Positions 2,351 through 8,776 of a stretch of DNA of 64,000 nt are shown here, piece by piece. How positions within the stretch are numbered: the stretch's first letter is position 1; the number at the start of each line of letters is the position of its first letter. A model generated the notes under the pieces. That model was not told the origin of the DNA. It worked only from the letters and a program-made list of their open reading frames with translations, and did no database searches. The position numbers and the translations under genes are program-made. The stretch is from NCBI GenBank assembly GCA_029641185.1, contig JAPWGK010000001.1, forward strand, positions 3,980,501 to 4,044,500. Reading direction: 5' to 3'. The DNA is from Pseudofabraea citricarpa. Lineage: Eukaryota; Ascomycota; Leotiomycetes; Helotiales; Dermateaceae.

Positions 2351-2740
2351 CTAGAAACGGAGCTCGCCCATGTATTGCATCGCGCCGGTATAAGCTATGG
2401 CCAAGGCGGTTGATAGTGCGTAGGTCAGATCACCGCAGTTAGAACAGCCGGCCCATCCACACAGAAGACGGAAAAGGATTGTACTGAGAGTGATGTAAAG
2501 AAGACTAACAATTGACAATTAGTGGCTGGATGTGAAGGTGAGGATAAGAATGACTGGAGTAGGGATTGCTCACCTCTTTGGGTGGTTTTGGACAATGGTC
2601 TGGACAGCATTTCGAAGAACACTATTTCCTGGGCCCGCGGGTAGAGTTGTAGAATTGTCTGGCGCCGGCGATGGGGGATCTGGGAGTGGATTTAGGAGCG
2701 AATCTAGCTTATAGTTCTCGTGTCGCTCCTTTGAAGTCAT
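2351..2740 (-). CDS. Small membrane protein homologous to the alpha-like segment of the neighbouring killer-like precursor
   Basis: Two exons (2740-2574 and 2504-2351) separated by a 69-bp intron (GTGAGC...TTAG, phase 2) give about 106 residues. I chose the ATG at 2740 because it opens the frame that splices cleanly. Residues 1-40 are polar and proline-rich with no signal peptide. Residues 57-102 form a hydrophobic, probably membrane-inserted module with the YITL motif, Arg68, Cys71, Cys76, Cys79 (SNC) and a DL-x-Y motif. This module aligns without gaps to residues 75-120 of the divergently transcribed gene at 3728 (20 of 46 identical by eye), and the intron falls at the same place and phase just before it. 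The family is not one I can name. A role in self-protection against the neighbour's product is inference; a paralogous remnant that kept a frame is the alternative. Confidence 0.65.
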
Positions 2741-3727
2741 CTTGGCGGCTGAATAGAGTTCTTGATGAGCGCGACGGTCGTTGGAAATGGAAGGAAGCCG
2801 TAGATCGATAGGCGGGGACGAGAACTTGGTGACACGATTTGATGTTACACCAGTTGCGGCTGATAACCTTACATAAACGACTCGTGTGGGGATGAAAAAT
2901 CAGGCTGGAATCAACGCAATACATAATCCTCTAAAATAGCATACTTGCCAAAAATAGATAATTCTTCAGCAAAAACGCATACACCAAGAATTCAACATCT
3001 TGATAAACCTCCTTAGTAGTTGCTTGATCGGGTAGGTAACGCGAGCTAATGCCAGTGGGTGATCTCACTGGAAACGCACTTGTTCATGCGGTAACCAGCC
3101 ATTATAACACAGGAAACCAGCTGTATACAACATCTATTGATAAGCACCTTCCTATAATGAAGTTGAGTTTCAGAAACCTAGAAAATGGCCCCGTGATGCT
3201 GTAGAGAAATCGGGAAACCGCATGCCAAGACAATCTGATGAGCCCATTACTACCATCATCTTCTCATCATGATGTCTAGAGATTTTCTTCTGTTCTTCAA
3301 GCGCTGGTATTGTGGCACAGTATTAATTCTCCTGCCCAATAGCCTTTGCAGACGATGTCAATACAGCGCATTATCAAGTCGCCTGCTGAACAGAGTCTAG
3401 TTATCGAATAATGTAAAGGTCAGCTCGGCCTGTGTGCCACGAGAAACATGGAATCCTTCGTCTTTGTAGAATAAGTGAGTAATTAGAAGCCAAGATGCCC
3501 AAGAATACACGACATTGCTTAACTGCCTTCAACTCATATCAGCTGCACATCCTCCTTGCTGTAGCACGCGGGAAGGAGCACTACGGACATCTCTTATATT
3601 TAAGCCACTTCCCTCCATAACAGGAGCCTCTGTTTTCCAATTTCCCTGACAATCAATTTACACAACTATTCAAGCCTTCTTATATTGCTTCAGATTACAG
3701 TCGTTGCATCCCGTTGCAATAATCAAA
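2741..3727. promoter_or_regulatory. Divergent intergenic region between the two homologous genes
   Basis: About 1 kb between the start codons of the small membrane protein (minus) and the killer-like precursor (plus), so both promoters must lie here. A TATA-like TATATTTAA sits at 3595-3603, about 130 bp before the plus-strand ATG. I see no other gene or repeat. Confidence 0.45.
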
Positions 3728-4640
3728 ATGAAATTTCTCCACGCTGCTGCTTACGCCCTCGTGGCCAGCCAAGCTACCGTCATTGCTGCCCCGACTGCTG
3801 TTGCTGATCCCATTGCCGAAAACTCGTTGAGTTTGGTCGAATACCGTAGTGCCAACCCAGAGCATATGGCTCTGGCTACTCTGGAGAAGCGAATCAACTG
3901 CCGCAACATCCGTCGTACCATTCGTGGAATTGGTACCAGTAAATTTATGTACGCCCTCACTTCGATACCACATCAACTTCATTTGCTAATGTATAATTTA
4001 GCGTCATCTATATTACCCTGGCAAACGTTCTAGCCCGTAGCATTTGTGCCTACGCCAATAGTAGTAACTGTGAAGACCTCGCATATCTCATCCAGACTGG
4101 CTTGAACCTCATATATATAGCGGCAGCTCATTATGCAGGTGCTCAACCGGAGATCTTACCCGGTGCCAAGAAGCGTGATGATATCCACGATAGTTATGTG
4201 GATTGGTGGGTCAACTCGCTTGCTGCGAGCTCAAGCGACGTCAATTACGAGAGCATCACCACTCTCCCCTTCAACAGTACTGAAGAGACTCTTACCCGCC
4301 GCGATGGAGACCCTGAGCTTGTGAGCCGTGTCTACCTTGCTGGTGTGACAGCACCTCACAGCCCGGAGTCCAAGCAGGACATCATTGTCAACCACTTCGC
4401 CGACGGCAACACGGTGCTCCACCTACCATTTGGCCCAAGCGAGACGGTGTTAGGCAAACGTGTCCCAGCAGGTTCCGGTTTTAAGATCTCCTTTGTGAGT
4501 AGCGCATTTCGACCTGAATTTGTTCCTTTCCTTGCTAATAAGAGTACCTAGACAACCAGGGGAAAGTCTTTGCTTACAGCTTCGCATCAACGACAGATGT
4601 CGGCTTCTGCTTCAGCATCCTGGGCTACAGCCACCAATAG
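3728..4640 (+). CDS. Secreted Kex2-type multi-domain precursor resembling a killer preprotoxin
   Basis: The ATG at 3728 opens a signal peptide (residues 1-20, cleavage likely after VIA). Dibasic sites follow at LEKR (54-55), KKR (130-132) and TRR (173-174), dividing the rest into a hydrophobic alpha-like part with three Cys (58, 89, 97), a short gamma-like linker with an N-glycosylation site (NST 165-167), and a beta-like C-terminal part with one Cys. This order matches Kex2-processed killer preprotoxins such as K1, K28, KP6 and SMK in plan; I claim no sequence match. Intron 1 is 3949-4001 (GTACGC...TTTAG, phase 2). Intron 2 lies at about 4495-4551 and its exact splice is unresolved: one reading frame stops at 4640, the strict TAG acceptor with the GTGAGT donor would run to 4782. 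I prefer 4640 because that frame is hydrophobic-patterned and carries the Cys. The total is about 270 residues. The partner at 2351-2740 is divergent. Confidence 0.7.
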
Positions 4641-5075
4641 GTATGCGATGACTGACTATATTGGCTTCGCCGAGACGGATCACAGCGCCAATTTCTACTA
4701 CCGAATTATTCCTGAAACGAGAGCATTCGGGCTCAACTATGAATCAGTTGACATCTGTGGCGGCATGGCAAGCTTTTTGTAGAGTTAGGTCGATGCAAGG
4801 GCAGATGGATCTCCATAATGATTCTGTCAGAGGATTTAGACAGGATTTTGGTAGAAGTTCCGGTGCATTCAATGGACTTCACACGTTTCAATCTATTTGC
4901 TCAAGTACCTAACACTAAGACGAACGCCTCATGTCGAATAGGTGGTAGCCTGCTGCTAATTTCAATATCAACTGCTCTACAATCTTAGACTTCAAGATTC
5001 TGACGCTGAAAACTTTTTATTGAATGATTCTGACAAAATATTATACAGTGAATTAATAATGAGATGCGTAGGTAT
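4641..5075. other. Convergent intergenic region
   Basis: Lies between the ends of the killer-like gene and the subtilisin gene. It contains the alternative tail of the killer-like gene (to 4782) if the other splice is used. Nothing else recognised. Confidence 0.4.
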
Positions 5076-6485
5076 CTACTGGCCACTGCCATTGTATACC
5101 AACAAGTTAGGCGACCCCATAGGATTAGGTATCACATCTTTGTGCGCCAACTCGACAAGTCTTAATCTCACTTCTTCCGGAGATCCTAGGCCACCTTCCA
5201 GAGCACGTAAATAACAGACTAAGCCTGCAACCAGCGGAGATGCCATGCTAGTCCCGGTGCGGGCCACGAGACTCGTGTCAGAAACATAGTCAGCGCTGAT
5301 GACATCGCGACCTGGTGCAAAGACATCCAACTCTGGGCCCCAGTTACTTCCGTAGATATCATCGATGATGTCGGTGCGACTACGGTCAGGGTCCGTCATA
5401 CCCACCGTGATTACCTGCGGCACTCGGGCAGGGGTATGTTCAGCTGCAGGACCCTGAATTATCATATTAGCATATACGTAGCTAGCGCTTGGTGGATTGA
5501 TTAGGTTTACTCACATCATTGTTACCAGCTGCTGCAATGGATAAGATACCCAAGTCATATGCTGCGATGACTGCATTATCCCATAAAGTGCTAGACGTTT
5601 CGGCAGCTAAATTTGATATTAGCATGTCGCTTTATCTCAAGACTTTTTTCTTGTATGGAAGGCTTACAAAACGAGAGGTTGATCACTGATGTGTTCTGAG
5701 CACCTTTGCTGATAATGTCATTTACTGCCCAGTTATAGCCTGCCAATCCCAAAGAGACGGCGCCCTATTAGACTGATTAGTAAGAAAGTTATGAGACAAT
5801 GAGAATTTCCACTTACAGATCCCTGAGACAGTATTTTGACATCAACCACTGTCGTCTTGCGAGCGACACCGTGAATTTTGCCAGCAATAATACCTGCAAC
5901 GTGCGAGCCATGGCCTTCTTCATCCGTGTTCGTCCCATTCTGGACAGTAGAAGCAGTGAAAGCGTTGTAACCAAAGATGGCGCGGCCCTCAAACTCATCA
6001 TGCGAAAGTCGAATGCCGGTGTCTAACACGTAGGCTGTCTGTCCTTCTCCTGCACTATCATCGAATACATAATCTGTCGACCCAGCGGCTTCGTGTGAAA
6101 CATCCCCAAGATGCCACGGTGCTCCGACCTCGGTTACCAAGTCACGTCTACTAATATCCACGGCTTCGGATGGCTCCTCGACTATGATCTGATCGGGCTC
6201 CACGCTCAGAACATCGGGTAGTTTTACAATTGCCGCAATTTGCTCCTCGCTAAAACTTCCGGCATATGCACTGAAGCTTCCGAACTGAAGCACATTCTCG
6301 ATTGTGCTTTGGTGAGGGCTCAGAGAAGAGACGATCGACTCTGGTGACGAGTTGGCTTTGAACTGGATTATATATTGACCTGGAATGGCTCGACTTTCGA
6401 TGCCAGAATGTCGACCAGAATCCAGTGGCGCTGCTAGTGATAGCGTAGCCACACACAGAAACGTTTGAATTGTCTGCACCCTCAT
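5076..6485 (-). CDS. Secreted subtilisin-like serine protease (S8, proteinase K type)
   Basis: Four exons give about 411 residues. A signal peptide (1-19) is followed by an I9 inhibitor propeptide (about 37-100, PGQYIIQFK start) and the S8 catalytic domain. The catalytic residues are visible: Asp155 in VLDTG, His192 in GHGSHVAG, oxyanion Asn near 284 in AAAGNND, and Ser near 355 in GTSMASP. Introns begin with GTAAGT, GTAAGC and GTGAGT and are each about 50-60 bp; splicing restores the conserved spacing between the residues. The enzyme is an extracellular endopeptidase that matures by removing its own propeptide. It sits tail to tail with the killer-like gene and head to head with the M28 aminopeptidase at 7166, so the two secreted peptidases may share a promoter region. 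All key residues are present and the length is normal for the family. Confidence 0.95.
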
Positions 6486-7165
6486 CCTGAAATCTAGTTC
6501 TCGTTGGGTCGATCAAATGGATAGATTTGCAAACGAAGCCACTCCCAAATTGACGTTCCTGATCGCTTCTTATATTTGTGAGAGATGCATGAAGCCAAGA
6601 AATGAGACCCTTCAACTTCTTGATGGTGACCAAATCATTACTGGTTGCGTGACCCTTACGTGCTTTGTGTAGATATCGTATCTCGCTTCCCAGAGTCCCT
6701 TGAAATAACCATCAAAAGCCCAGTTTGCGATCTCTGGTATATTGATTTTTGGGTGATCATTGCCGAAGACGATCGCAACCGGCAGTAGATCCATGGCAAA
6801 GCTTGGCATAGTTAAATCCTTCCGGGGAACGTTTCTTGGTAACTGCCAAGTTGGGAAGTACAAGGCCGGCAGTTTGATGCAGGAACCCCGTCCCATCTGA
6901 GAAAGGCAGGTCGGCTCGTCCCGGATACGATACCGATAACGCTACCTTCCCCATATGTTTGTGCCCAGATTTTAGATTGGTCGTTCCTGATGTTCGAATA
7001 TCAACAATTAATATGCAAATTTGACTTCAGGCGATGTCGGAATTGATTGCCATCTATGGCCGTCTACTTTTTAATAAGTCATGTCGAGATACTTAGCAGA
7101 GCTCACTGCAAGTGTTTTCCTGGATCTTACAGTTATTGCGCTCTCGTAATTGCACCCATTTTAAG
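6486..7165. promoter_or_regulatory. Divergent promoter region of two secreted peptidases, with a possible gene relic
   Basis: Separates the start codons of the subtilisin and the M28 peptidase. On the minus strand, 6612-6990 carries overlapping open frames with protein-like composition that cannot be joined by obvious introns; this may be a decayed exon (see findings). Confidence 0.4.
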
Positions 7166-8776
7166 ATGGAGGCTAAGCAGACATCTCTGACACGGCTATT
7201 GATTTGCTTAACCTGGCCAATTCTCTGTCTCTGTCAAGAATTGAGTTCTGTGGCTCTGCAAGCCGACATTTTATCGGAGAAGTAAGTACACAAGCGACAC
7301 TACCATTTCAAATCTTAAGCTAATTACATATGGAAGTCTACAAGCAGACTTAGTTCGGTTCAACGAGATAGCGACTTCCAATGGAGGCAATCGTGCATTT
7401 GGACTTCCTGGCTATGATGCATCTGTTGGCTTTGTATGGAATCGACTTTCGCAGCTTGAAGGCGTAAATGCCTGGAAGCAAGACTTTTCTGCCGTTTTCG
7501 AACGCACACCAGTTGTAAATCTCACGGCTGGCGGAACGGATTATGCTGCATGGCCGATTACATATTCTCCGTCAACAAGTCATGAAGGTCTCGAGGCTGA
7601 GCTCATACTCGGGCCTGCAGGCGATGCGGCATGTGACACGGCTTCATATGGAAATTTAAATGCTACTGGCAAGATTGTCCTCGTTGAGTATGGCAGTTGT
7701 CCTGGTATCCGTGCTGCGTTTTTAGAAGGGCGGATGCTGCCTGCTGCGGCTGCTGGTGCCAGTGCCGTCATCATCTACAATGACATCAACTTGATTCAAC
7801 GCGCTGGTAGCTTTTCGAGGGCTGCAGAGGGTGATGTCCCTACTGGGTTTATTAACAGAGTAGAGGGGCTCAACATCAAAAGCCGCTTGGAGTCTGGAGA
7901 ACTGATTACAGCGGTATTTGTAACGTACGAAATTCTAGACACGAGGACCACACAGAACATCTTTGTAGAGACAGTAGAAGGTGACCCTGATAATGTTATA
8001 ATGGTGAGCTATCCAATATATGATAGCAAAAATTTGAAACTGAACAGAATAGTTAGGAGCGCATCTTGATAGTGTTCAAGCAGGACCCGGTATCAACGAC
8101 AATGGTGAGTTTTTTTTAATTATGTTTATGTACGGACGTATAAATTCTAACAAAAACACTTTAGCTTCTGGATGCTCTCTTCTCCTTGAGCTTTTCACAG
8201 CAGTCACCAGATACAAGATCAAAAACAAGCTACGTTTTGCTTGGTGGGGCGCCGAAGAAAAAGGGCTATTGGGCTCTCGACACTATGTCAACACACTTCT
8301 ACAAACCGATGCTGATAAGATCCTTGCTTACCTCAATTTTGATATGGTATCTCGAGGCTACTTTGGAGTGTTTGACGGTGATGGGAGCACCTTCGGCATT
8401 GCAGCACCTCCAGGGTCAGGTGCGATTGAGAAGCTCTTCGTTGATGACTATGTCTCTAAGAACATCACTGTGACACCGGCAAATCTTAGTAATGGATCCG
8501 ACTACAATTCATTCTGGCAGGTTCTCCACAAGCCGATTGGAGGTCTTCATACTGGCACTGGGACTGCTCAAGATCCCTGTTATCACCAAAGCTGCGATAC
8601 TGTTAGTGGCGTGAATATAACCACACTTACGATTAACACGAAGGCAAGTGATTTAGACAGCATATGATTTGATGCGGTCTTGTTGAATAGAAATGAAGAA
8701 TGCTAATTTGGAAACTCTATAGGCAGCTGCACATGTCTTGTCGAACTTAGCGATGAACGGTTTAAATGTCAATTAA
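7166..8776 (+). CDS. Secreted M28 family aminopeptidase
   Basis: The ATG at 7166 opens a signal peptide (residues 1-23), then a PA domain and an M28 zinc-peptidase domain. The metal ligands expected for the Streptomyces griseus aminopeptidase type are visible: GAHLDS (His), GINDN (Asp), WWGAEE (Glu), NFDM (Asp) and CYHQSCD (His). Exons are joined by short introns starting at 7281 (GTAAGT), 8003 (GTGAGC) and 8105 (GTGAGT). The last intron uses a GC donor (AAG|GCAAGT, about 8643) and adds a 17-residue C-terminus ending at 8776. The Gly usually found after GINDN is Ala here. The enzyme removes N-terminal residues from peptides outside the cell, which fits with the neighbouring subtilisin. It runs divergently from that gene. 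Confidence 0.93.

Follow-up and report, generated by a model that had tools for sequence, protein, structure and literature searches.

The window analysed here, a stretch of 64,000 nucleotides at positions 3980501-4044500 of contig C1 in a fungal genome of 44 Mb, carries two divergently oriented genes whose predicted products share a homologous module of 46 residues: a precursor gene with the layout of a killer preprotoxin, and a small gene that keeps the module but not the rest. The homology of the modules, the matching intron position, the gene order and the separate lineage of the small-type proteins are direct results of the computation. On our best reading, to which we give a probability of about 0.4, the locus would encode a killer-toxin-like preprotoxin together with a divergent, leaderless decoy of its alpha hairpin, by which the producing cell may protect itself.

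Both gene models were read directly from the DNA, with predicted splices in each (Table 1); all three introns begin with GT, end with AG and contain a CTAAT motif resembling a branch site. The precursor end at position 4640, which the first-pass annotation had adopted, was abandoned: the frame opened by its acceptor at 4560 is not conserved in relatives. The last exon most likely spans 4552-4782, because relatives conserve the C-terminus encoded by this frame (NFYYRIIPE...FGLNYESVDICGGMASFL), and P0011, one of them, matches exon 3 at 70% identity; the precursor is most likely a protein of 314 residues, as predicted from these relatives. Codon scores of the three precursor exons are 0.135, 0.059 and 0.084; the first small exon (0.049) falls between the 95th (0.042) and 99th (0.076) percentiles of stop-free non-coding windows, and the second (0.031) under the 95th percentile, so that codon bias weakly backs the coding status of the small gene. 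Contig C1 terminates in TTAGGG repeats (seen in C1:4066178-4072177), and the gene pair ends 86.9 kb from this telomere. Two peptidase genes lie downstream, a subtilase with an I9 prodomain (5736-6512, minus strand) and a PA/M28 peptidase (7245-8664, plus strand).

Table 1. Features of the small gene, the precursor gene and the region between them (positions in the window).
Feature	Position	Strand	Description
Small gene	2351..2740	-	106 residues, two exons
Small gene exon 1	2574..2740	-	Residues 1-55 and two bases of codon 56; polar, without signal peptide
Small gene intron, phase 2	2505..2573	-	69 bp, GTGAGC...TTAG, CTAAT
Small gene exon 2	2351..2504	-	Module (residues 57-102) and stop; two-helix hairpin in model
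Divergent intergenic region	2741..3727		987 bp; from sequence
TATA-like TATATTTAA	3595-3603		Upstream of precursor gene; from sequence, putative regulatory role
Precursor gene	3728..4782	+	314 residues, three exons
Precursor exon 1	3728..3948	+	Signal-peptide-like N-terminus, pro-part, LEKR site 3887-3892
Precursor exon 1, start of alpha domain	within 3728..3948	+	Cys58; further RR at residues 62-63
Precursor intron 1, phase 2	3949..4001	+	53 bp, CTAAT; immediately 5' of module
Precursor exon 2, module	4002..4494	+	Residues 75-120 = 4003-4140; Cys89, Cys97
Precursor exon 2, processing sites	within 4002..4494	+	KR 4171-4176; RR 4297-4302 splits gamma; KR 4456-4461
Precursor intron 2, phase 0	4495..4551	+	57 bp, CTAAT
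Precursor exon 3, corrected frame	4552..4782	+	Beta-like C-terminal domain, ends VDICGGMASFL (Cys307); from family alignment

Residues 75-120 of the precursor align without gaps with residues 57-102 of the small protein, with 20 of 46 positions identical and a BLOSUM62 score of 112; 200,000 shuffles reached at most 50, and a further 200,000 that kept the hydrophobic/polar pattern reached at most 64. A chance likeness of two hydrophobic stretches was rejected on these grounds, since none of the 400,000 shuffles, half of them pattern-keeping, attained the score of the module pair. A family profile was built from 31 of 53 precursor relatives, leaving out the window precursor itself and 22 relatives that were near copies or whose modules were short, absent or apparently mis-spliced; a search with it, proposed in the first-pass annotation, recovered the small protein at 34.9 bits (best domain 34.6), against a top score of 11.3 bits among 10,000 shuffles. 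When the whole 44 Mb genome was searched, each module retrieved itself and the adjacent other module (E 1.7e-6 and 7.9e-8), and no further copies up to E 10 appeared among the best candidates scored; a scattered pseudogene family, the alternative raised in the first-pass annotation, is not the picture that these searches give. In both genes, a phase-2 intron with canonical ends splits the codon just 5' of the module (codon 74 in the precursor, codon 56 in the small gene). Six relatives in rows that look unspliced (P0005, P0012, P0018, P0025, P0026 and P0050, picked by eye) have Ser or Arg before the module, and a seventh, P0038, has Gly; since Ser or Arg is what an AG acceptor followed by one base would predict, the intron seems, from these sequences, to be ancient within the precursor family. 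The gapless alignment, the paired introns, the divergent arrangement of the two gene models and the absence of a signal peptide and of dibasic sites from the small protein had all been described in the first-pass annotation, and all of them hold; its killer-toxin-like layout of the precursor is supported by the precursor family and by the predicted element order.

The precursor belongs to a family of at least 53 relatives, all with E values of 4.2e-19 or better among the best 7,997 candidates scored in the alignment search; they come from Trichoderma, Xylariales, Colletotrichum, Phialemonium, Aspergillus and unnamed samples, many rows are fragments, and those with a named source are labelled as hypothetical, uncharacterized or unnamed proteins. 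None of the 53 carries a precomputed Pfam domain, Pfam gave no family for the 314-residue precursor, its paralogue on contig C18, P0006, P0015 or P0047, and the PDB gave no sequence match for the precursor. Its layout consists of a signal peptide (by eye), a pro-part, an alpha domain, a gamma domain with an internal site, and a beta domain, separated by predicted Kex2-type dibasic sites at residues 54-55, 131-132, 173-174 and 226-227, with an additional RR at 62-63; by these predicted sites it follows the delta-alpha-gamma-beta order of the K1 superfamily. Among 13 of the 53 relatives that were checked, the site between alpha and gamma is present in 11 and that between gamma and beta in 10; nine carry exactly four cysteines, which correspond in position to Cys58, Cys89, Cys97 and Cys307, two have five and two have three. 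If, as the four conserved cysteines may suggest, Cys58 and Cys307 form a bond that joins alpha to beta in the toxin, the small protein might imitate alpha while being unable to attach to beta. Hydropathy peaks at residues 73-91 and 100-118 of the precursor, together with the model described below, indicate the hydrophobic alpha-domain helix of K1-type toxins; the shared module is the helical hairpin of the alpha domain.

The relative P0006 was modelled with AlphaFold2 from the 53-row alignment, with modest confidence (mean pLDDT 64, pTM 0.68); gamma blocks reach pLDDT values of 75-92 and beta lies mostly at 66-79, prediction is poor for the pro-part and for the first alpha helix, and residues 54-86 and 88-93 fall below 50. 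The model has helices at residues 82-89, 96-115 (the central helix, with blocks of pLDDT 62, 87 and 64) and 135-148, a short strand at 158-161 and a helix at 166-172, followed by strands at 180-190, 199-206, 211-216 and 234-241, a helix at 249-269 and strands at 275-281 and 285-294. In the K1 superfamily, a disulfide fastens the central helix, at its N-terminal end, to the element that precedes it, and the core is an antiparallel sheet between two helices that ends in strand-helix-strand-strand, with the last strand inserted (PMC13211469). In the modest-confidence P0006 model, Cys87 is found where the first alpha helix ends, and Cys95 just before the central helix; the core order of hydrophobic helix, strands and terminal strand-helix-strand-strand agrees with the order given for the superfamily in section 2.7 of PMC13211469. 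Foldseek placed K1L at the top of the viral matches of this model (E 1.3e-3, probability 0.77; runner-up E 0.11), a weak match with TM-scores of 0.25 and 0.24 and an rmsd of 17.2, and there were no viral matches at E 0.001. Given the weak K1L match and the modest model, the precursor is therefore termed killer-toxin-like and is not filed as a member of the K1 superfamily, to which it is probably akin by layout and model. With that superfamily (K1, K1L, K2, K21, KHS, K45 and K74) it shares, as the superfamily is defined in PMC13211469, the signal-pro-alpha-gamma-beta layout with predicted Kex2-type sites and a hydrophobic alpha helix with a cysteine pair at its N-terminal end, and the modelled strands and C-terminal strand-helix-strand-strand resemble those of the superfamily in order; it differs in being a chromosomal gene with introns, without a Pfam or PDB sequence match, and is known from sequence alone. 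The precursor family may already sit within the homologue lists that accompany PMC13211469.

The small protein begins without a hydrophobic leader (by eye) and contains no adjacent basic residues; when the intergenic region was scanned in a simple way for a leader exon that might have been missed, one weak and unconvincing candidate of 18 residues turned up at 3590, and it is unlikely that the small gene has a concealed signal-peptide exon further upstream. Its Cys71 and Cys79 correspond to Cys89 and Cys97 of the precursor, at the start of the central helix; Cys76 is extra, no cysteine precedes Cys71 and hence none matches Cys58, and Cys307 has no counterpart. A structure model of the second exon has helices at 2-18 and 23-47 of its 50 residues (pLDDT 73, pTM 0.42), and Pfam gave no family for the protein. 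A word-based search of about 5.8 billion sequences yielded one other small-type protein, P0005, from an ENA contig of 865 bp; it shares 30 of 46 module positions (65%) and the same cysteines with the small protein, and both carry GCSNCGDLT, which includes the extra Cys76, and GAMQY.GEL, neither of them seen in precursor modules. In a module tree of 46 columns and 28 rows (31 rows with the cysteine pattern, less P0033 for its wrong register, P0042 and P0025), the two small-type proteins cluster with support of 100/99; so few columns limit the resolution of other branches. A sole clade of the small protein and the window precursor, as would be expected of a recent fragment, was rejected (p-AU 0.0017), and a wider clade of both small-type proteins, the window precursor and P0012 was not (p 0.174). 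The grouping with P0005 and the rejection of the narrower clade therefore place the duplication before the split of the two small-type lineages; on this sequence evidence the small gene looks like an old paralogue rather than a fresh fragment, and the small form is, judging from the module sequences, retained in both lineages. P0012, from an ENA contig of 1027 bp, is the closest relative of the precursor module (32 of 46 positions). P0012 and P0005 might come from one organism, which would favour pairing.

A second gene of the precursor family lies elsewhere in the genome, at C18:104262-105182; it has a single exon, encodes 307 residues and contains four dibasic sites as well as four cysteines, of which the middle two are 14 residues apart and not 8. 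Within 8.3 kb before and 6.8 kb after this gene, the module profile found no reading frame above noise as a small partner (next best 8.8 bits), and BLAST with the paralogue's own module likewise gave no partner in these flanks; the same flank procedure applied to the window recovers the small gene at 33.9 bits. At 24.5 bits, the C18 module is a divergent one, so that a C18 partner which had likewise diverged could be missed. The last 6 kb of this contig (660756-666755) are extremely AT-rich, with a GC content of 0.186 compared to 0.435 in the first 6 kb, and could be mitochondrial-like or repeat-mutated DNA. Precursor relatives are widespread, in contrast to the one other small-type protein found, and the scarcity of small-type proteins in protein collections counts against general pairing; short two-exon genes are often overlooked by annotation, so that their absence from such collections is weak evidence.

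Among known systems, K1 immunity has been mapped to the late part of alpha and the early part of gamma; it relies on export from the ER and on two alpha residues, Cys95 and Cys107, and its proposed mode of action is sequestration of either the receptor or the mature toxin (PMC13211469). The mechanism of K1 self-protection has been called poorly understood (PMC7888664). Protection types are classified as precursor-based (K1, K28), signal-sequence-based (K2) and genome-encoded (KP4, zygocin, K62) in PMC12691639. In the K1 and K28 preprotoxins, as proposed here, the alpha part is central to protection; there, toxin and immunity reside in one gene and part of gamma is required, whereas the candidate here is a separate, leaderless paralogue without gamma and thus departs from K1-type, precursor-derived immunity. 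The precursor may still protect its producer by itself. The closest precedent comes from yeasts, where decayed K1-like genes tend to retain alpha and part of gamma and might protect, as suggested by Fredericks and co-workers (PMC7888664). These truncated KKT (K1-like) genes are, like the small gene, chromosomal, alpha-containing copies with a proposed immunity role, and they are mostly subtelomeric, as are the K1-like chromosomal genes of yeasts; they are C-terminal truncations, and are described under gene inactivation in PMC7888664. The small gene, by comparison, has its own start and its own shared residues, faces its toxin-like gene and lacks a signal peptide. The wtf genes of fission yeast are meiotic spore killers, and their proteins are not known to be related to those of the small gene and the precursor. 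They offer a parallel to the proposed scheme in that poison and antidote derive from one gene, through alternative transcription starts, and in that a family member suppresses through antidote mimicry (PMC9762604; PMC6283613). Zymocin-type elements, which are virus-like elements of yeasts, encode a specific immunity protein on the toxin's own element; their toxins are anticodon nucleases, and the immunity protein is not described as a toxin homolog in the opening of the abstract of PMC4431711. The first-pass annotation had regarded a separate, homologous partner gene as a new arrangement; this stands insofar as no paper describing one was found among open-licence PMC papers, and gives way insofar as immunity by truncated alpha copies was already proposed for yeasts, so that the idea is not wholly new (PMC7888664).

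On our preferred reading, the precursor would enter the ER and be cut by a Kex2-type protease into alpha (which carries the hydrophobic helical hairpin), gamma and beta; fungal membranes would be the target of the mature alpha/beta protein. The small gene, an ancient copy of the alpha hairpin that has neither a signal peptide nor processing sites and no beta domain, would yield a protein that inserts in the producer's own membranes while keeping the hairpin and the cysteine pair. This protein would prevent the toxin's alpha helices from assembling or docking, a dominant-negative decoy that confers self-protection from a gene adjacent to the toxin gene. Secretion, toxicity, membrane insertion, immunity and co-regulation of the two genes are all postulates of this scheme. 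The membrane decoy is preferred because it best joins the proposal of immunity by alpha copies with the leaderless hairpin, its own shared residues and the head-to-head gene order; the lack of a leader and of gamma in the small protein, the C18 paralogue without a recognisable partner and the finding of one other small-type protein count against it.

The pair can also be read in other ways. A serious contender, if a rather doubtful one, is a small gene neofunctionalised as a membrane hairpin outside immunity, for example helping the precursor to fold or to be processed in the ER, or serving as a second membrane-active subunit; the motifs GCSNCGDLT (with Cys76) and GAMQY.GEL, common to the small protein and P0005 and absent from precursor modules, suggest that the small form is under a constraint of its own, paralogue partners are not necessarily antidotes, and the gamma part that K1 immunity requires (PMC13211469) is missing from the small protein. 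Yet adjacency, divergence and retention of the alpha hairpin alone fit a cognate role, an argument that does not separate a chaperone from an antidote. That the small gene is a functionless, decaying partial duplicate is improbable: its codon scores (0.049 and 0.031, against a non-coding 95th percentile of 0.042), the truncated K1-like copies carried by yeasts (PMC7888664) and its site about 87 kb from a TTAGGG end would be in keeping with decay, but the frame is intact, as is the intron with its branch motif, P0005 is 65% identical over the module with the same cysteines, the codon scores of the small exons are close to that of precursor exon 2 (0.059), and scattered copies were not found among the best candidates scored in the 44 Mb genome. 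There is similarly little likelihood that the precursor is a secreted signal or effector-like precursor instead of a toxin, regulated by the small gene; the relatives found carry no known activity, the named ones being hypothetical, uncharacterized or unnamed, and several come from plant-associated genera such as Colletotrichum, but the domain order, the cysteine positions and the predicted order of structural elements are killer-toxin-like, and K1L is the top viral structure match, albeit a weak one.

Should the membrane decoy be correct, the locus would tentatively represent a chromosomal killer-toxin locus of a filamentous fungus with a dedicated immunity gene derived from the toxin's own alpha hairpin, a putative split, leaderless decoy; such an arrangement differs from precursor (K1, K28), leader (K2) and zymocin-type immunity. 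If a leaderless hairpin copy of 106 residues suffices for protection, the immunity determinant would be isolated in one small gene; a widespread, unnamed precursor family of moulds would at the same time be placed beside the K1 superfamily, and its antifungal activity would be directly testable.
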